Source of the DNA: Kordiimonas pumila
GTDB lineage: Bacteria; Pseudomonadota; Alphaproteobacteria; Sphingomonadales; Kordiimonadaceae
DNA length: 64,000 bases
Reading direction: 5' to 3'
Assembly: GCF_015240255.1 (NCBI RefSeq)
Contig: NZ_CP061205.1
Location: forward strand, 3,768,501-3,832,500
Position 1 is the first letter of the stretch. Each line of letters begins with the position of its first letter. This document shows positions 46,750 to 55,381 of this stretch, one piece after another. The position numbers and the translations under genes are program-made. Below the pieces are notes generated by a model. That model did no database searches and was not told the DNA's origin. It saw only the letters and a program-made list of their open reading frames with translations.

Positions 46750-47344
46750 TCACTCTTTTGGCCATGAATCGTTTCTGGTCACCCTAAAAATTAACCATGT
46801 TTTGAAACTTTCATGCACAAAAAGCTTCCATTAAATGATAATTATTATATTATAACATTATATTTTGGCGGTAAATCGTTAAAAAAATGGCCTGTCAACG
46901 AAATAAGATAAGAATTTTTAAAATTTTTACTTGGAATCGGAGAAGATTCTTGGATGATAGGCCACAAGTCGGACACAAGCCTCTGGCGGACGCTATTACT
47001 ATCTAGCGTTTGATAGAACGATAGACTGCTCGATGCGATCCCAGGTGTGGCATCAGAGCAGCAAGAGGTGGCAGTGTTAAACTGCTTTGTGAACGGCACA
47101 ATTGGGAGAGGTACGGGAAAGCCTTTAAAAACAGATGGAATGCTCGACTGACCAAGAATACGGTCAGCCGTGTTATTTTACTGAATATTCCCAATTTTGA
47201 AGGGTAAAGACTTAGTGTCTCAAAAAGGACATTAATCTTTGCGAAGTTTAATCTGCCATCATGGCGCCGCTGGTTTTTCTGACACTGTCAGGTATCCGGC
47301 AATTAAGGCAAAGTTTTGGCTAATAAAACCCAAATGGGCAGAAA
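46750..47344. other. 595-base non-coding region upstream of the TonB operon
   Basis: No frame of convincing codon use spans this region; the longest open frame on either strand is short and lacks a ribosome binding site. It contains hairpin-forming pieces, for example GAATC...GATTC (46934-46949), and the 13-base palindrome CTGACACTGTCAG (47279-47291), which sits 53 bases before the DUF3450 start and is a good operator candidate. The length suggests a long leader or an unidentified RNA. I see no known riboswitch motif. Confidence 0.4.
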
Positions 47345-48121
47345 ATGGATAAGGCTAAAGTGAAACGGATAGCTGTCTCTACGGTCGCGGTTGCCTCAAT
47401 CCTTCTAGGAGCTACTGCTGCAAATGCACAGGATGCTCGTCTGAAGTCGATTGTAGACGAGGTGAACCAAGCCAACAAAATCGCACAAGCATCACAGCAA
47501 CAAATTGACAAAACTGTCGATGCTACAAGCAAATTGTTTACACAATACAAAAGCACGCTGAAGACCATCGCTGGTCTTGAGGCATACAATGCACAGCAGA
47601 ACCGCGTGATTGTGAAGCAAAAACAAGAAATCGAGAAAATCAAAAATTCTATTGGCCAAATTGACGAAATCAAACGTCAGGTTGTTCCATTGATGCAAGA
47701 GATGATCGAAAATCTGGATGAGTTCGTTAAACTTGACGTACCGTTCCAGTCAGAAGAACGCGCAGCCCGCATTGAAAACCTGCGCGATGCGATGGATAAC
47801 CCGAACGTTAGCGATCCAGAGCGTTTCCGTGTTATACTTGAAGCTTACAAAGCTGAAGTTCAGTATGGTCGCACTATCAATGCTTACGAAGACCAACTGC
47901 CAGATGGCCGTGTTGTTAACTTCGTACGTATTGGCCGTGTTGGCTTCTACTACCAGAAAAAAGATGGTTCAGAAACAGCCGCTTGGAACCCTGAAAAAGG
48001 GTCTTGGGAAGTTCTTGACGGTGAATTCACCGCACCTATCAAGCAGTTGATCAAAATCGCCCAGCGCCGTACACAGCAGGATATTGTTGTACTGCCGATA
48101 GAAGCGCCAGAGGGGAAATAG
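47345..48121 (+). CDS. DUF3450 protein of the TonB energising operon
   Basis: A 258-residue exported protein: signal peptide (VASILLGATAANAQD), a coiled coil (residues 30-115), and a C-terminal domain with GRVVNFVRIGRVGFYYQKKD and WNPEKGSWEVL, the DUF3450 signature. DUF3450 genes usually open TonB operons that also hold a long ExbB (TtpC-type). Its exact role is unknown; a periplasmic link to the cell wall or receptors is an inference. The long ExbB starts 4 bases after its stop. Confidence 0.9.
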   Translation: MDKAKVKRIAVSTVAVASILLGATAANAQDARLKSIVDEVNQANKIAQASQQQIDKTVDATSKLFTQYKSTLKTIAGLEAYNAQQNRVIVKQKQEIEKIKNSIGQIDEIKRQVVPLMQEMIENLDEFVKLDVPFQSEERAARIENLRDAMDNPNVSDPERFRVILEAYKAEVQYGRTINAYEDQLPDGRVVNFVRIGRVGFYYQKKDGSETAAWNPEKGSWEVLDGEFTAPIKQLIKIAQRRTQQDIVVLPIEAPEGK

Positions 48122-48125
48122 AACC

Positions 48126-49490
48126 ATGAAAAAGATTTTAACCTCAGTAGCTATTATTGCTCTTGGCCTGACCGGTTCAGCTCAAGCACAAGATGCTGAT
48201 ATGCAAAGCCTTCTGAACAAAGTACGTAATGGTACGGTTTCAGAATCAGCTGCGCACAAACAACGCGAACAGGAATTCCTGAAAGCAAAACAAGATCAGC
48301 AGTCACTGCTCACTAAAGCTGAAGCCAAACAGGCTGAGCTCGAGCGTGAAAGTGCGCGTCTTGAAGAAGCACGCCGTCAAAACGAAGCTGAAATTACTCG
48401 CCAGCTTGAAGTACAGCGTGAACGTCTTGGCCAGCTCAGCGAGCTGTTCGGTGTTCTCCAGCAAGCTGCCGGTGATGCACGGTCTACAATTTCAACATCG
48501 CACATCACACTCGACAATCCTGGCCGTATGGCTGAGATTGATACGCTTGTTGAAAAAGCCTCAGAATCATCTGATCTGCCAACGCTGAATGAAATTCGTG
48601 CATGGCCAGCACAGATGATGCTTGAAATGGTTGGTTCCGGCCAAGTTAAGACTTTCTCTGCGGATGTTCGCCTGAATGACGGCAACACCCAAACAATGGA
48701 TGTTACCCGTGTTGGTGACTTTGTTATTGTTGGTGACGGCAAATACCTTCAGATGAACTCTAAAGGCGAAATCTCTGAGCTTCAGCGTCAGCCTTCTTCA
48801 CGCTTTACAAGCACTGTTTCAGCGTTTGAAAATGCGACAACTGGTCTTCATGCCCTTGGTATTGACCCAACACGTGGTCAGCTTCTGAACCTCGAAGTTG
48901 AAAAACCAACTATTATGGAACGCCTTGATCAAGGTGGCCTGATTGGTTACCTGACACTGGCACTTGGTGCAATCGGTGTTGTTCTTGCTGTATTCCAGTG
49001 GTTCTATCTGGCACTTGTTACCGGCAAAGTGAAAAAGCAGATTCGTTCTGATGTTGCAAACACCAACAACCCACTTGGTCGTGTTCTTGCTGTTTATGAA
49101 AACAACAAGTCTGTTGATGTTGAAACACTTGAACTGAAACTTGATGAAGCGATTCTTAAGGAAACTCCTGCTCTTGAGCGGTTCCTGACGCTGATCAAGT
49201 TGATTTCTGCTGTTGCGCCACTGTTTGGTCTCCTTGGTACTGTTACAGGTATGATCGAAACCTTCCAAGCCATTACACTGTTCGGTACCGGTGACCCAAG
49301 CCAGATGGCTGGTGGTATTTCTGCTGCCTTGATGACAACAGTGGAAGGTCTTGTTGTGGCTATTCCTACGCTCTTGCTACACAGCTTTGTGTCAGGTTCT
49401 TCAAAGGGCGTTATCCACGTTCTCGAAGAACAATCTGCTGGCATCGTTGCAGTGCATGCAGAGAAAGAGCACGCGAATGCTAGCGCTTAA
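48126..49490 (+). CDS. Long MotA/TolQ/ExbB-family proton channel protein (TtpC-like)
   Basis: A 454-residue protein in which a signal peptide and a coiled-coil periplasmic region (residues 22-270) precede an ExbB-like core with three membrane segments. The core contains LISAVAPLFGLLGTVTGMIETF and GGISAALMTTVEGLVVAIPTLLL, the two conserved ExbB/TolQ helices. This matches TtpC of Vibrio TonB2 systems, which connects the TonB complex to the outer membrane. It starts 4 bases after the DUF3450 stop, and its 3' end overlaps the next gene by 14 bases. Confidence 0.9.
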   Translation: MKKILTSVAIIALGLTGSAQAQDADMQSLLNKVRNGTVSESAAHKQREQEFLKAKQDQQSLLTKAEAKQAELERESARLEEARRQNEAEITRQLEVQRERLGQLSELFGVLQQAAGDARSTISTSHITLDNPGRMAEIDTLVEKASESSDLPTLNEIRAWPAQMMLEMVGSGQVKTFSADVRLNDGNTQTMDVTRVGDFVIVGDGKYLQMNSKGEISELQRQPSSRFTSTVSAFENATTGLHALGIDPTRGQLLNLEVEKPTIMERLDQGGLIGYLTLALGAIGVVLAVFQWFYLALVTGKVKKQIRSDVANTNNPLGRVLAVYENNKSVDVETLELKLDEAILKETPALERFLTLIKLISAVAPLFGLLGTVTGMIETFQAITLFGTGDPSQMAGGISAALMTTVEGLVVAIPTLLLHSFVSGSSKGVIHVLEEQSAGIVAVHAEKEHANASA

Positions 49491-50004
49491 TGAAGCATTT
49501 GACGCGATCCGGGCATTTATGGAGCGGGGCGGCGACGTCCTGTTCCTGATCCTCGCGGTCACGTTCATTATGTGGGTACTCATTGTTGAACGCCTGTGGT
49601 TTTTGTCGCTTGAATATAAAAAGCAAAAAAACCGGGTAATCGATGCTTGGGAAGCTCGCAGCGAGCGGAGATCATGGTATGCACACAAAATTCGTGCTGC
49701 GATGGTTTCAGAGGCTAACCACAACCTGTTTCAGGGTGTGAACCTCATCAAGACGCTTGTTGCGCTTTGTCCACTTGTGGGCCTTCTCGGTACTGTTACA
49801 GGTATGATCGAAGTGTTTGACGTAATGGGATCACAAGGCAGTTCAAACGCACGTGCCATGGCGGCAGGTGTGTCAAAAGCAACAATCCCGACAATGGCGG
49901 GTATGGTTGCTGCACTGTCAGGCGTATTCCTGTCTACCTACATTGAACGTCGTGCAAAAACGGAATCGGAACGGCTTGAAGACAGCCTGACCATGGACCA
50001 CTAG
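49477..50004 (+). CDS. exbB: ExbB (short MotA/TolQ/ExbB proton channel)
   Basis: A 175-residue proton-channel subunit with three membrane segments: VLFLILAVTFIMWVLIV, then LVALCPLVGLLGTVTGMIEVF, then KATIPTMAGMVAALSGVFL. The conserved Thr-Gly/Thr residues of the channel are present. It uses the proton gradient with ExbD to energise TonB. The start at 49477 lies inside the end of the previous gene, which is the usual coupling for this operon type; an open frame extends back to 49351 but is a shadow of the long ExbB gene. Confidence 0.9.
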   Translation: MLALNEAFDAIRAFMERGGDVLFLILAVTFIMWVLIVERLWFLSLEYKKQKNRVIDAWEARSERRSWYAHKIRAAMVSEANHNLFQGVNLIKTLVALCPLVGLLGTVTGMIEVFDVMGSQGSSNARAMAAGVSKATIPTMAGMVAALSGVFLSTYIERRAKTESERLEDSLTMDH

Positions 50005-50023
50005 ACCAATTGGAGCATAACTA

Positions 50024-50443
50024 ATGCGTAAGTTCTCAAAGGGAGAGGAAGAAGCAGAAGTTAACATGACCCCGATGCTTGACATCGTGTTTATCATGTT
50101 GATCTTCTTCATCGTGACTGCCTCTTTCGTGAAAGAATCTGGTCTGGAGATCAATAAGCCGGAAGATCAGAATACACAAAATGATCCTCCGCCACCGGAT
50201 GATGAAAAGCGCGCAATAGCTTTCATTATTGATGATGCAAATCGAATCACACACGACTTTGTTCGTGTAGATGTTTCTTCGATTTCTTCCATCATCAAAA
50301 AAGAAAGCGTTGAGCGCCCAAAAGCACCGGTCGTGATTCAGGCCTCTGAGGGCTCACACCTTGGTCTTGCAATACGTATCTATGATGCAGCAAAGGCCAC
50401 CGGCGTGAGTGATGACCAGATCATCATGACCCCGAAGAAATAA
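50024..50443 (+). CDS. exbD: ExbD/TolR biopolymer transport protein 1
   Basis: A 139-residue protein with one N-terminal membrane segment after VNMTPMLDIVFIMLIFFIVT; Asp20 in the membrane segment is the proton-carrying residue. The periplasmic part ends in the ExbD-type domain (PVVIQASEGSHLGLAIRIYDAAK). It is one of three ExbD paralogues in the window, all with Asp20. It follows exbB by 19 bases. Confidence 0.92.
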   Translation: MRKFSKGEEEAEVNMTPMLDIVFIMLIFFIVTASFVKESGLEINKPEDQNTQNDPPPPDDEKRAIAFIIDDANRITHDFVRVDVSSISSIIKKESVERPKAPVVIQASEGSHLGLAIRIYDAAKATGVSDDQIIMTPKK

Positions 50444-50451
50444 ACATCGCT

Positions 50452-50470
50452 GGCGGGGGTATCCCCCGCC
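50452..50470 (+). terminator. Strong hairpin between the two exbD genes
   Basis: GGCGGGGG (50452-50459), TAT loop, CCCCCGCC (50463-50470). Eight GC-rich pairs, but only TTT follows. Within an operon, it is more likely an mRNA stabiliser or partial terminator that lowers expression of the downstream exbD-tonB genes. Confidence 0.6.
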
Positions 50471-50515
50471 TTTCAGGGCGAAGCACCTAATTATAGGGGC
50501 GAATTGGAGAAAACA

Positions 50516-50914
50516 ATGCGTAACCACGCTCAACAAGAAGAAGATACCGAAATCAACATGACCCCGATGCTCGACATCGTGTTCATTATGTTGATCTTCT
50601 TCATTGTTACCGCGGTCTTCGTAAAAGAGGCTGGGGTTACTGTTATCAAGCCAGAAGCCGAAACTGCTTTACAGCAAAGTCAGGTTAGTATTCTGGTTGC
50701 CGTCACGTCTGAAGATAAAATTCATATCAACCAGCAAGAAGTCAAACTTGATGCACTGCGTGCAAATGTTGAAAAACTACACGCAGAAAACCCGAAAGGG
50801 ACTGTTGCAATTCAAGCTGATGAAGAATCAAAATCTGGTCTGGTCATGAAAGTATATGACGCCATTCGTGACGCTGGTGTTGAAACAATTGCTATAGCTA
50901 CGGAGAGAAAGTAA
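50516..50914 (+). CDS. exbD: ExbD/TolR biopolymer transport protein 2
   Basis: A 132-residue ExbD paralogue: INMTPMLDIVFIMLIFF with Asp20, and a periplasmic domain ending GVETIAIATERK. Compared with ExbD 1, the transmembrane segment is nearly identical and the periplasmic part diverges. The ATG at 50516 is preceded by GGAGAAAAC; TTG at 50504 is an alternative. The TonB gene begins on the last base of its stop. Confidence 0.92.
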   Translation: MRNHAQQEEDTEINMTPMLDIVFIMLIFFIVTAVFVKEAGVTVIKPEAETALQQSQVSILVAVTSEDKIHINQQEVKLDALRANVEKLHAENPKGTVAIQADEESKSGLVMKVYDAIRDAGVETIAIATERK

Positions 50915-51531
50915 TGATTGCTCGAGTAGCCACCTCACTTGTTGCAGCGACAGGCATTACCTTTGGCCTGTTTTTCGTAATGAATTTACTTGTTGCGGGT
51001 GACGGTGAAGTTAACATCGATGAAGATAAAAAGTTCAGAATGATTGATGTCGTTCAGGACATTGAAGACCAGCCGCCTCAGCGCATGGAGCGGCAAGTAG
51101 AAAAACCGCCAGAGGTAGAAGCGCCTCCGCCGGAAATTGATACCCCGCAAGTGGACTTGCAAGGCCCTGACAAACTGAACCTTTCCATTGGCCGCGCCAA
51201 TGCTGGTTCTGGTGTTGAACTGGGTTCTATTGACCTTGGTCCAAGTTCAGACGGTGACTATTTGCCGCTTGTACGGGTTCAACCACAGTATCCACGTCGT
51301 GCAAACGAGCGCGGTATTGAAGGATATGTTATTGTGGAATTAACAGTGGCTGAAGATGGCTCTGTTCCACCTGATAGCATTCTAATTATCGAGGCTGACC
51401 CAAAAGGCTATTTTGAGCGCGAGTCTATCAAGGCTGCTCAAAAGTTTAAATACAAGCCTAAGGTCGTCAATGGAAAAGGCCAGAAAGTGACCGGCGTGCG
51501 CTATAAATTCACGTTCGATCTGGCTGAATAA
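50914..51531 (+). CDS. tonB: Energy transducer TonB, first copy
   Basis: A 205-residue TonB with one N-terminal membrane segment (LVAATGITFGLFFVMNLLVA), a short Pro/Glu-rich spacer (PPEVEAPPPEIDTPQ), and a TonB C-terminal domain (LPLVRVQPQYPRRANERGIE; ending VRYKFTFDLAE). The spacer is shorter than that of E. coli TonB, as in TonB2 systems that rely on a TtpC-like partner. The SxxxH pattern of TonB1-type membrane segments is absent. It is translationally coupled to exbD 2. Confidence 0.93.
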   Translation: MIARVATSLVAATGITFGLFFVMNLLVAGDGEVNIDEDKKFRMIDVVQDIEDQPPQRMERQVEKPPEVEAPPPEIDTPQVDLQGPDKLNLSIGRANAGSGVELGSIDLGPSSDGDYLPLVRVQPQYPRRANERGIEGYVIVELTVAEDGSVPPDSILIIEADPKGYFERESIKAAQKFKYKPKVVNGKGQKVTGVRYKFTFDLAE

Positions 51532-51550
51532 CTAGGGGCAGGAGAAAGTC

Positions 51551-52900
51551 ATGAACTTTATCAAGACCATAAAATCCTTGCCAATGGCATTGGCCGCAGT
51601 AGCAATAGTTACTGCGACTTCTCTAACGGTATCTGGCGGTTCTGCTGTTTATGCTCAGGAAGAGCAAGCGTCACAGCAAGAAACCCGCAAAGTACCGGCC
51701 ATGAGCCTGGATATTCATAAAAAGGTACAAAAGGCCCAGGAAGCACTGGACCTTGATGATGTTGTAACTGCTGAAGCCCTTCTTCAGGAAGCTTTGGAAA
51801 AACGCAATATCAATGATTACGAACGTGCTGTTGTATGGCAAATAAAAGCCATGATCTCATACGGCAAGGAAGACACTCAGGGCACTATTCATGCCTATGA
51901 GCAAATCCTAAAATACAAAGACAGTATTCCTGTTGCGCTTGAACTGAACATTATTTACGGGCTGGCCCAGCTGTACTTCACTGAAGAACAGTATGACAAA
52001 GCCCTTAAATATGTTGGTATCTGGGAAAAACAGGTTGATCCTTCTATCATTAGCGTTAGCAATCAGGTGTTCATTGCACAGCTGCATTACACACTCGGCG
52101 ACTATAAAAAGTCGCTGGACTATCTTTATGCTGCTATCAATACAGCAAAATCACTTGATACTGTTGAAGTGAAGGAAAACTGGTATCAGCTCGCACTTTC
52201 AGCACACTGGGAACTTAACCAGTATGATAAAGTGCGTGATGTACTTGAGACACTGCTTATTAACTGGCCAAAACCACTATACTGGATTCAGCTGGCAGGT
52301 GTTTATCAGGAACTTGGGGAAGACAAAACCTCTTACTCAATAACTGAAGCTGCCTATAAGCAAGGTTTCCTTGATGATAAGGAAATACAACTTCTCCAGA
52401 TGGCTCAGATTCAGATGGCCCGTGAAGCACCTATTAAATGCGCTTGGGTTCTGGAAAAAGCCTTCAAGGAAAAGCGTGTTGAACAGAATGCCAAAAACCT
52501 TCGTACCCTTGGTCAGTGTTATATGCAGGCCAATGACTACAAAAAGGCGATTGCACCTCTGACCAAATCTGCATCTCTTGATGCGGATGCAGCCCTGTGG
52601 CTTCAAATTGGTCAGGTTCAAATGCAGCTTGATAATATGAAAGGGGCGGTTGACGCTTTTGACAGTGCTATTGAAGGCTTTAAAAAAGACAAAGCCAAAG
52701 AAGCAAAAGAAAAGCTCTTTACCACCACTATGATGCGCGGTCAGGCTCTTACCGAACTAAAGCGGTATGATGATGCCCGTGACGCTTTTGCCGATGCTTC
52801 TAAGTTAGCCGATGACCGCCGTGACAAGAAAACAATCACGCAGTGGAAATCTTATCTTAAAGCCGAAGAAGAGCGCGAAAAAATGCTAACGGGTAGATAA
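51551..52900 (+). CDS. TPR-repeat protein of the TonB operon
   Basis: A 449-residue exported protein with a signal peptide (residues 1-36, ending near YAQEE) and at least five tetratricopeptide-like helix pairs (EQYDKALKYVGIWEKQ; GDYKKSLDYLYAAINTA; QYDKVRDVLETLL; NDYKKAIAPLTKSASL; KGAVDAFDSAIEGF). It belongs to the TPR proteins that end DUF3450-ExbB-ExbD-TonB operons and is presumed to bring TonB receptors or partners together in the periplasm. Residues KVPAMSLDIHKKVQ after the signal peptide recur in the chimera at 54206. A terminator follows. Confidence 0.88.
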   Translation: MNFIKTIKSLPMALAAVAIVTATSLTVSGGSAVYAQEEQASQQETRKVPAMSLDIHKKVQKAQEALDLDDVVTAEALLQEALEKRNINDYERAVVWQIKAMISYGKEDTQGTIHAYEQILKYKDSIPVALELNIIYGLAQLYFTEEQYDKALKYVGIWEKQVDPSIISVSNQVFIAQLHYTLGDYKKSLDYLYAAINTAKSLDTVEVKENWYQLALSAHWELNQYDKVRDVLETLLINWPKPLYWIQLAGVYQELGEDKTSYSITEAAYKQGFLDDKEIQLLQMAQIQMAREAPIKCAWVLEKAFKEKRVEQNAKNLRTLGQCYMQANDYKKAIAPLTKSASLDADAALWLQIGQVQMQLDNMKGAVDAFDSAIEGFKKDKAKEAKEKLFTTTMMRGQALTELKRYDDARDAFADASKLADDRRDKKTITQWKSYLKAEEEREKMLTGR

Positions 52901-52923: not shown

Positions 52924-52954
52924 AAAACGGCGCCAACCACGGCGCCGTTTTTTT
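52924..52954 (+). terminator. Rho-independent terminator of the first TonB operon
   Basis: AAAACGGCGCC (52924-52934), AACCAC, GGCGCCGTTTT (52941-52951), then TTT. Perfect 11-bp stem with a T-tract. Confidence 0.93.
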
Positions 52955-53057
52955 ATGGCTACAGAGCATAATCGCTAAAACATATAAACACGCCCCAAGG
53001 TTTGCTACTTTTTCCTTCAGTGCGCCATAGGCCTCCTTATAAGAGCTTTCCGTTATG

Positions 53058-53092
53058 TTACATTATAACTTTATTAATCTTTAGTAATGTAA
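53058..53092. promoter_or_regulatory. Inverted repeat in the promoter of the second TonB set
   Basis: TTACATTA (53058-53065), 19 bases, and TAATGTAA (53085-53092), in an A+T-rich stretch. GTTATGTTA occurs twice as a direct repeat (53052-53060 and 53097-53105). Together they make a likely regulated promoter for the 53127-55381 set. Confidence 0.5.
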
Positions 53093-53126
53093 TATTGTTA
53101 TGTTATCACATTAATGGAGGGGAACC

Positions 53127-53732
53127 ATGACATTTACACGCTATATGCCTATAACCGGTATTGCCGCAGGCACCACATTCGCCCTGTTTGGCCTGATGCA
53201 AATGCTGGCAGCAAATGATGATGGTTTTATGGATACACCCGTAAAACCGTTTGTATTTATAGACTTTATAATTGATCAGGAGCCACCTATAGACCCAAAC
53301 GTAATAGACCGTATCGTTGAACCGCCTGTGATCGCGGACCCGCCTAAAGGGGAACCGCTACCAAAGGGAACAGATAACAAGGTTACGCCACTACCCCCAC
53401 TTACTCTGCCCGAACCACCTGTCATCAAAGAATCTTTCGACCCCGGTTTGGCAGACGGCGCAAAAATTCCGATAGTCAGAGTTAATCCCGCATATCCGCC
53501 GCGCGCAGCAAAACAAGGCATTAGTGGATGGGTCGTGCTTGAATTTGATGTTGACCCTATGGGCATGGTTCAAAATACCACAGTGATCGATGCTGAGCCT
53601 AAAACCATGTTCAACAACTCTGCCCTAAAGGCTATAGCCAAATTTCGCTATAAACCCACAGTAGTCAACGGTGTGCCGGTTTGGTCACACGGTAACCGCT
53701 ACCGCATGGTTTATACTATGGCCGGTGAATAG
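53127..53732 (+). CDS. Energy transducer TonB, second copy
   Basis: A 201-residue TonB: membrane segment at residues 8-29 (GIAAGTTFALFGLMQML), a Pro-rich periplasmic spacer (EPPVIADPPKGEPLPKG), and a TonB C-terminal domain (IPIVRVNPAYPPRAAKQGIS; ending NRYRMVYTMAGE). The last strand differs from TonB 1, so receptor preference may differ. The ATG follows GGAGGGG. ExbD 3 starts 9 bases after the stop. Confidence 0.92.
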   Translation: MTFTRYMPITGIAAGTTFALFGLMQMLAANDDGFMDTPVKPFVFIDFIIDQEPPIDPNVIDRIVEPPVIADPPKGEPLPKGTDNKVTPLPPLTLPEPPVIKESFDPGLADGAKIPIVRVNPAYPPRAAKQGISGWVVLEFDVDPMGMVQNTTVIDAEPKTMFNNSALKAIAKFRYKPTVVNGVPVWSHGNRYRMVYTMAGE

Positions 53733-53741
53733 GAGGGGCAG

Positions 53742-54140
53742 ATGAGATACAGAACCACAACAGTCGGCGAGGCAAAACCCGACATGACCCCTATGCTGGA
53801 TATTGTGTTTATTATGCTGATCTTTTTTATTGTCACAGCACAATATGTGTCAGAGCATGGGCTTCATATCAACCACCCTGAACCCATGATCTCTGAACCT
53901 TCCAACAGCCCAAACCAGCCTCTTATATTTCAAGTATCAGATAGCAATAGCTTCATACACCAAACGCGCCCTATTGATATTTGGTCAGTTGAGGCCCTCA
54001 TGAAGCAGAAACATACAGAAAAACCAGACCTGCCAGTAGTACTACTGCCCAGTGAAAACAGCCATATAGGCATGCTGATACGCCTTGTAGATGGCGCTAA
54101 AAAAGCAGGCTACACAACAGAGCGGATTGTTGTGAAATAG
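53742..54140 (+). CDS. ExbD/TolR biopolymer transport protein 3
   Basis: A 132-residue ExbD with MTPMLDIVFIMLIFFIVTAQ and the proton-carrying Asp20. The residue before MTP is Asp, where ExbD 1 and 2 have Asn (NMTP to DMTP). The set has no exbB, so this ExbD must pair with the ExbB from the first operon or with one encoded elsewhere. GGAGGGGC precedes the ATG. Confidence 0.9.
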   Translation: MRYRTTTVGEAKPDMTPMLDIVFIMLIFFIVTAQYVSEHGLHINHPEPMISEPSNSPNQPLIFQVSDSNSFIHQTRPIDIWSVEALMKQKHTEKPDLPVVLLPSENSHIGMLIRLVDGAKKAGYTTERIVVK

Positions 54141-54205
54141 ACTTTAGGCTTGCCCCCTAATCACAGGCTTGTATTCTGCTAGCAAATAATTAGGGGGTAC
54201 AGTTA

Positions 54206-55381
54206 ATGGCACTAAAAAACATCCGGGCAGTGGTCAACAAAGCCGCCTTTGCTGTAATGGTGGTTTTAGGAACGGCAATAGCGAGCACAACACCAGCTTT
54301 TGCCCAAGCACAAGAGGCTCGCAGAGTTCCTGCAATGAGCCTTGAAGTGCATAAAAAAACGCAGGAAGTGCAAGAGCTTGTTGATATCAAAGACTATGAA
54401 GCGGCCAAAAGCCTTGCGGATACTGTAATTACAGATCCAGCCACCAACAATTATGAAAAAGCTGTGCTTTGGCAAATGAAGGCCGCCATTGCCTTTACCC
54501 TGAATGATAAACCTGCAACTATTGATGCTTACCTTCACATTCTGGAATACCGGGACAACATTCCACCTAATATTGAAACGCAAATTCTATATGCCGTGTC
54601 TCAGCTTTACTTCACAGAAGCAAACTATGATGCCGCACTCACATACTATGAAGCATGGCAAAAAACTATTCCCGGTCCTGTAGCAGCCGCTAACATGCGA
54701 TACCTTGCGCAGGTATATTATGCCTTAAAAAACTACAGAGCGACCATTGACGCGGCTGAAAAGGCCCTTCCCGGTCACGAAAAGACCACGGCTCACGGTA
54801 ATATCACCAATCTATATTCTATGATCATCTCATCGTACCACGAATTAGGGGATACAGAAAATACCCGCAGCGCCTTGGCCCGTGTCATCGACAAGGGCTA
54901 CAATACCCCGTATTGCAAGCTCTATGCAGCCTTGCTTTACCAAAATACAGCTAGTATTGAGCAGGCAGAACTTAATACCCAGAACAGCTTTCAGGCCTGC
55001 GCTGACTTTAAAGCTGATGCAGACCTGCCAGACACTAGCTTCAGAGAGGTTGCAACAGCACGTGCCCCGATAAAAATAACACGCAAGCAAAACCTCAATA
55101 CCGAAAACTACTTGCCGGTAGTGCCAACACAGCCACAATATCCCTCTGCAGCTGTAGAGCAAAAAATTAATGGCCATGTTATAGTCAGCATGACCGTGCT
55201 GGCTGATGGCACTATAGACCCGGCGTCTATTAAAATAATCGAATCTGTACCCGAAGGTGTGTTTGATGAGGTTAGCGTCAAAGCAGCTTCCGGTTTCCGC
55301 TATGCACCCAAGGTGATGGACGGAAAAGCGCAAGATATTAAAAACGTGCGCTATAAATTCACTTTCAATATCGCCGAATAG
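54206..55381 (+). CDS. Secreted TPR-TonB C-terminal domain chimera
   Basis: A 391-residue protein with a signal peptide (AFAVMVVLGTAIASTTPAFAQ), then a TPR region homologous to the TPR protein at 51551 (RVPAMSLEVHKKTQE against KVPAMSLDIHKKVQK; YAVSQLYFTEANYDAALTYY against the corresponding segment), then a TonB C-terminal domain from about residue 300. Its last residues, VRYKFTFNIAE, nearly match TonB 1 (VRYKFTFDLAE). It has no other membrane segment, so the TonB domain appears to be carried by a soluble or signal-anchored periplasmic protein. It looks like a fusion of genes 51551 and 50914. Confidence 0.9.
   Translation: MALKNIRAVVNKAAFAVMVVLGTAIASTTPAFAQAQEARRVPAMSLEVHKKTQEVQELVDIKDYEAAKSLADTVITDPATNNYEKAVLWQMKAAIAFTLNDKPATIDAYLHILEYRDNIPPNIETQILYAVSQLYFTEANYDAALTYYEAWQKTIPGPVAAANMRYLAQVYYALKNYRATIDAAEKALPGHEKTTAHGNITNLYSMIISSYHELGDTENTRSALARVIDKGYNTPYCKLYAALLYQNTASIEQAELNTQNSFQACADFKADADLPDTSFREVATARAPIKITRKQNLNTENYLPVVPTQPQYPSAAVEQKINGHVIVSMTVLADGTIDPASIKIIESVPEGVFDEVSVKAASGFRYAPKVMDGKAQDIKNVRYKFTFNIAE

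Follow-up and report, generated by a model that had tools for sequence, protein, structure and literature searches.

A predicted secreted TtpD-like protein with a TonB C-terminal domain, encoded downstream of a Zur-like tandem operator in Kordiimonas pumila

CpoB is a periplasmic TPR partner of a TolQ/ExbB-type motor. To our knowledge, it is not understood how TtpB, TtpC and TtpD help TonB systems. Both TtpB and TtpD of Vibrio vulnificus, the latter a TPR protein, are essential for TonB2-mediated iron uptake, and in an operon of the type ttpB-ttpC-exbB-exbD-tonB-ttpD the gene for TtpB stands first and that for TtpD last (PMC6957404). CpoB and other TPR partners of the Tol system are periplasmic and work with a TolQ/ExbB-type motor (PMC12204202). 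Receptor binding by a soluble fragment of TonB (33-239) has been described (PMC11658791). In the open literature searched, whose coverage excludes most subscription journals, no publication on a fusion of TtpD with TonB was found.

We analyzed a window of 64,000 nucleotides from the genome of the marine bacterium K. pumila, in which all features described here lie on the plus strand. Operon 1 (47345-52900) comprises seven genes in the order ttpB, ttpC, exbB, exbD, exbD, tonB and a TPR gene. The DUF3450 protein TtpB (47345-48121; PF11932, E=2e-74) is followed by the long ExbB-like protein TtpC (48126-49490; PF01618, E=3e-29) and by ExbB (49477-50004; PF01618, E=1e-22), for which the start MLALNEAF was set by comparison with relatives. 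Two ExbD proteins (exbD1, 50024-50443, and exbD2, 50504-50914; both PF02472) and the membrane-anchored TonB1 (50914-51531; PF03544, membrane motif TFGLFFVMNLL) come next. The last gene (51551-52900) encodes a secreted protein which matches TPR families and resembles TtpD2 of V. vulnificus in position and type (PMC6957404). A terminator search returned a terminator-like match at 52924-52951, where the 11-bp perfect inverted repeat AAAACGGCGCC/GGCGCCGTTTT is followed by T residues, and this is the likely terminator of operon 1. In two relatives (G002 and G019; L042 and L052) ttpD is duplicated downstream of operon 1.

The region upstream of ttpB (46865-47344, approximately 490 nt) is a candidate for a new structured leader RNA of the operon, judging from its sequence. 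It contains blocks which are invariant in 13-14 genomes, and its covariation was higher than in any of the 500 shuffles (97.5% of cells are paired, with 27 double changes versus a mean of 7.8). A single copy of the block motif is present in each of 23 genomes of the Kordiimonas family and in one other genome of the order, and the leader profile was located before ttpB in 11/11 ttpB loci tested from the family. An Rfam search with the leader gave no match.

Behind operon 1 lie a second, membrane-anchored TonB, designated TonB2 (53127-53732; PF03544, E=2e-17, with the membrane motif), exbD3 (53742-54140; PF02472, E=5e-20) and, as third gene, the chimera studied here. Since the TonB2-ExbD3 pair lacks a dedicated ExbB, we infer that it probably relies on the TtpC/ExbB motor encoded by operon 1. 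In the K. pumila window the search detected no terminator separating the chimera gene from exbD3, but an intrinsic terminator is present at this place in the relatives G005 and G010. Thus, co-transcription is plausible in K. pumila and uncertain in these two relatives. In a perfect 9-bp stem, CCCCCTAAT/ATTAGGGGG (54153-54197), the ribosome-binding site of the chimera would be base-paired. The folding signal is weak (minimum free energy -26.6 kcal/mol, z -1.9), and translational control by this stem is a possibility raised by the sequence. In G005, a further TonB-like gene (L035, 9551-10177), the third at the locus, lies between ttpD and TonB2; it is strongly diverged and has a Zur-like site of its own.

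The chimera gene was verified as an open reading frame at 54206-55381 that encodes 391 residues. An antisense reading of the frame was ruled out by several stops. Residues 1-33 (54206-54304) form a predicted signal peptide, as judged from sequence and a hydropathy script: an n-region with K4, R7 and K12 is followed by a hydrophobic core of 13 residues and by TTPAFA/QAQ, with the slash marking the inferred cleavage. This is a standard Sec/SPase I pattern, from which export and cleavage at AFA/QA are predicted. Residues 46-261 (54341-54988) form the TtpD-like TPR domain, which was recognized by 32% identity to TtpD and by AlphaFold helices, although its detection by Pfam was weak. The TonB C-terminal domain comprises residues 305-391 (55118-55378); within it PF03544 (TonB_C) matched residues 309-388 with E=3e-14, which passes the gathering threshold. 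The AlphaFold model, calculated from 44 sequences, has a mean pLDDT of 85.8 and shows two confident domains, with pLDDT values above 90 for the majority of blocks in the TPR as well as in the TonB domain. They are joined by a short disordered linker (residues 283-297, pLDDT below 50). In a Foldseek search the best TonB match of the C-terminal domain was TonB from the BtuB complex (2gsk_B, TM 0.89, 1.6 A), and TonB from the FoxA complex (6i97_D) gave 0.87.

The membrane-helix motif T[F/S/A]xLFxxMxxL occurs in 40 of 43 TonB proteins of the Kordiimonas family and in none of the seven chimeras that we collected from it. The original prediction of a signal peptide, a TPR region and a TonB C-terminal domain combined with the lack of a TonB helix was borne out by Pfam, hydropathy, AlphaFold and this motif count, and the structure check which it called for returned a TonB fold at the C-terminus. 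These analyses confirm a protein composed of signal peptide, TPR domain, disordered linker and genuine TonB C-terminal fold, without a TonB-type membrane helix. The hydrophobic core of the N-terminus would be strong enough for a single helix, so that an uncleaved anchor might pair with ExbB and the chimera might be an odd but ordinary TonB. This is highly improbable in view of the AFA/QA cleavage site, the likeness to the signal region of TtpD, the missing family helix motif and the lipobox of another copy. The latter was found in the chimera of K. gwangyangensis DSM 19435 (G010; L034, 10787-11971), which contains LSAC/GG and is a predicted lipoprotein. Consequently, this chimera is probably tethered to the membrane by lipid and would stay in the envelope despite its missing TonB helix.

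Both halves of the chimera have paralogues in operon 1. The proposed homology to the TPR protein at 51551-52900 holds over 285 aligned residues (32% identity, E=5e-45), and the TonB domain aligns with TonB1 over 91 residues (55% identity, E=3e-32). The gene order known from V. vulnificus identifies the TPR protein as TtpD (PMC6957404). Therefore, the chimera is a hybrid of TtpD and TonB and not an unknown TPR protein; by sequence homology it is a TtpD paralogue with a TonB domain in place of the C-terminal part. The nearly shared tails, VRYKFTFNIAE in the chimera and VRYKFTFDLAE in TonB1, do match at 9 of 11 positions. The tail is not specially conserved in the other chimeras, and its likeness belongs to the overall identity of 55% with TonB1. 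Simple readthrough was rejected as the origin of the fusion, because the order tonB-ttpD cannot yield ttpD-tonB.

Full-length TtpD-TonB_C genes are present in 7 of 30 genomes of the Kordiimonas family. They are absent from the 268 genomes of the same order outside the family (order sample of 298 genomes), and a phylum sample of 398 genomes contained none beyond that of K. pumila. Plasmid matches from Pseudoalteromonas and others consist of two pieces, separately annotated TPR and TonB genes, and were not counted as fusions. Scans of named genomes with conserved peptides for P0001 and A1 gave nothing usable. As a check on the original prediction, it was asked whether the TPR plus TonB_C architecture always lies beside a DUF3450-TtpC-ExbB operon, which applies to only three of the seven chimeras. 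These three (K. pumila, G005 and G010) directly follow the TonB2-ExbD pair downstream of operon 1. The other four are located elsewhere, and inspection revealed no operator upstream of them. Most neighbours of the chimeras away from Ton operons have housekeeping functions (carbon-nitrogen hydrolase, dihydrolipoamide dehydrogenase, lipoyl synthase, Maf), and no functional lead emerged from them. The chimeras of G009 and G028, which belong to different genera, both lie next to a dihydrolipoamide dehydrogenase gene and group together with support in the tree. This combination of synteny and pairing indicates that the chimera gene has been retained over time. One chimera (G003; L036, 7783-9228) carries two tandem TonB_C domains.

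The mean identity among chimeras is 28% for the N-domain versus 53% for TtpD, and 39% for the TonB domain versus 85% for TonB1. Judged by these identities, both halves evolve much faster than their TtpD and TonB1 paralogues. The TonB-box-binding strand of the chimeras showed no special conservation (55% versus 50% for the rest). Because the chimera branches are long, the trees of both halves leave the number of origins unsettled; a single clade of all seven chimeras was not rejected (AU test, p=0.107). Such patchy spread and fast evolution would fit either a tuned accessory gene or a weakly constrained one. Long branches in both halves, the loss of the YP motif in the G002 chimera, the patchy distribution and the scattered loci could indicate that the hybrid gene is a duplicate whose constraint has relaxed, and that it has little function and is heading to loss. 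We consider this improbable, since all seven reading frames are intact despite great divergence, the K. pumila copy folds confidently in the AlphaFold model and synteny is kept in two lineages. Moreover, all seven chimeras have a cysteine near position 237, displaced by a few residues in G003 in the chimera/TtpD alignment, where 23 of 23 TtpDs examined have tryptophan.

The YP motif is also relevant to the question of what the TonB domain touches. It is kept in five of the seven chimeras, lost in G002 and changed to VP in G010. As this receptor-facing motif is altered in two chimeras and TtpD-type subunits are part of the complex (PMC6957404), the domain might contact TonB, ExbD or the cell wall instead of receptors and aid assembly or regulation of the TonB2 complex. 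The retention of YP in the majority and the match of the predicted fold to the receptor-bound form of TonB make such a role distinctly unlikely.

The TonB2 gene is preceded by two palindromes of the form GTTA-N5-TAAC, operator O1 (TGTTACATTATAACT, 53056-53070) and operator O2 (TGTTATGTTATCACA, 53096-53110). O2 lies 40 bp from O1 and approximately 17 nt before the TonB2 start. GTTA-N5-TAAC is the proteobacterial Zur motif used for Caulobacter (PMC4176598), and in other bacteria pairs of Zur boxes are known to overlie the -35 and -10 elements (PMC6103462). Two operators of relatives are identical over 15 bp to Caulobacter Zur sites, namely TGTTATATCATAACA (G010 and G008) to that of znuK and TGTTACTTTATAACA (G002) to that of zrpW. 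The 30 genomes of the Kordiimonas family were searched for the tandem operator with up to 2 mismatches, and its targets were assigned by position and by reading of the downstream frames (the TonB2 gene of G011 was placed by coordinates). Matches were obtained in 17 of the 30 genomes (for the relatives, loci L170-L187). All of them lie just upstream of TonB2-type genes or of three genes for small secreted TonB_C-only proteins (G002, G015 and G019), and no match at this threshold was found in these genomes away from TonB2 or secreted TonB_C genes. This restriction suggests that anchorless TonB domains are co-regulated with TonB2.

A single Zur-like palindrome, TATTATATTATAACA (46843-46857), is located upstream of operon 1. 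With up to 2 mismatches, 21 of 25 genomes have a palindrome 460-540 nt before ttpB, compared with approximately 2% of shuffled upstream regions. Genome-wide, the single motif was not enriched at 2 mismatches (91 matches versus 106 in the reversed control). At 1 mismatch 58 matches were obtained in the 30 genomes versus 24 in the control, and those distant from Ton genes mostly look like chance. The O1/O2 cassette combines the palindrome at the promoter with a Zur homologue in the genome, as a Zur regulon does at the sequence level; the best NCBIfam match of this homologue is NF008646 with 138 bits, under the cut-off of 167 bits. ZnuA was not found in the genome. Because of this and of the missing enrichment at 2 mismatches, we place Zur control at the level of the motif, where it is likely for the TonB2 cassette. 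Given its tandem Zur-type operator, the TonB2-ExbD3 cassette is probably made under zinc starvation. This link between cassette and operator goes beyond the original prediction.

The view of a soluble TonB domain as an oddity confined to the chimera gene is not supported. K. pumila encodes another five small secreted proteins of the TonB_C-only type (L001 3301-5052, L002 2159-2587, L003 2306-2779), of which three are encoded one after another, and small secreted TonB1-type domains are present in relatives. In addition, a second, unrelated family of secreted TPR-TonB_C proteins of approximately 365 residues is widespread in the order (L043-L051, L053) and absent from the K. pumila genome. At the one locus examined its neighbours are genes for a lytic transglycosylase, a MoCF protein and a sodium:alanine symporter. 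Going by sequence, secreted TonB domains as such are common in K. pumila and its order.

These proteins bear on the main rival to the reading that we prefer. The chimera could be a decoy or brake. Its soluble TonB domain would then occupy TonB boxes without energy input and thereby lower TonB-dependent uptake or block phages or bacteriocins that use TonB-dependent receptors. Receptor binding by the TonB fragment 33-239 (PMC11658791) agrees with such a role, patchy presence and fast evolution would suit a conflict or tuning function, and the secreted TonB_C-only versions under the tandem operator could act without a TPR domain. A brake induced by a starvation operator together with the very TonB it opposes would however be uneconomical, and the TtpD half would be left without a reason. 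Overall, we regard it as rather unlikely.

The reading that we tentatively prefer, while giving it somewhat less than an even chance, is that the chimera serves a TtpB/TtpC-type TonB system as an adaptor in the periplasm. It would be a form of TtpD for zinc starvation, docked on the motor that both cassettes share and gripping receptors. Starting from the observed architecture, fold, paralogy, position and operator, we infer the following course. The chimera would be exported and released by signal peptidase. Its TPR half would dock on the Ton complex in the manner of TtpD, and the extra TonB domain, given freedom by the flexible linker, would hold or recruit the TonB boxes of receptors. The protein would then pass receptors to energized TonB or keep them near without being energized itself. 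An anchorless TonB domain that transmits force, with the TtpD variant docked on ExbB/TtpC via its TPR domain and pulling or handing over receptors, has a low probability in our view. The adaptor is supported by the homology of both halves, the essentiality of TtpD2 (PMC6957404), the confident folds with a disordered linker between them, the match to receptor-bound TonB, the motif-less N-termini of all chimeras, the same place after TonB2-ExbD3 in three species and the operator sharing. It is weakened by the fast evolution, the YP changes, the presence in only 7 of 30 genomes, the four chimeras away from Ton operons and the terminators in G005 and G010, as well as by the ordinary conservation of the TonB-box-binding strand and the failure to find ZnuA. 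Taken together, the original interpretation of the chimera is partly supported, and the decoy, tether and relay roles proposed with it are possible.

That TtpD and the TonB domain for receptor binding are fused in a natural protein suggests a receptor-side function of TtpD within the complex. Should the adaptor reading be true, a TonB domain can be coupled without a membrane helix of its own. The operator evidence further suggests a swap-in Ton cassette of TonB, ExbD and a TtpD-like part for zinc scarcity, with one motor shared, and a regulated role for the small secreted TonB domains, which are usually annotated just as 'energy transducer TonB'.

Compared with known systems, the chimera resembles TtpD in being a predicted secreted TPR protein with 32% identity to the local TtpD. 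Unlike a full-length TtpD it is homologous over the first approximately 285 residues only and continues as TonB_C. Moreover, the last slot of operon 1 is occupied by the gene at 51551-52900, whereas the chimera comes after the separate TonB2-ExbD3 pair. With its C-terminal part replaced, it is not a TtpD by membership despite its TtpD parts. With TonB it shares the predicted receptor-binding-type fold at the C-terminus, the YP motif and 55% identity to TonB1. In contrast to TonB, it has a cleavable-type signal peptide instead of a membrane helix with the motor-binding motif, and the proline-rich spacer that spans the periplasm is replaced by the TPR helices 46-261 and the short disordered linker. 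Lacking anchor and spacer, it is likewise not a TonB by membership despite its TonB parts. The small secreted TonB_C-only proteins are similar in combining a signal peptide with an anchorless TonB fold, three TonB1-type members being under the tandem operator, but they have no TPR domain. The family of approximately 365 residues has the same layout of signal peptide, TPR and TonB_C; its TPR domain is however of the MalT/TPR_12 kind and not TtpD-like, and it occupies another genomic place. Finally, the CpoB-type partners of the Tol system differ from the chimera in that they carry no fused TonB or TolA domain.
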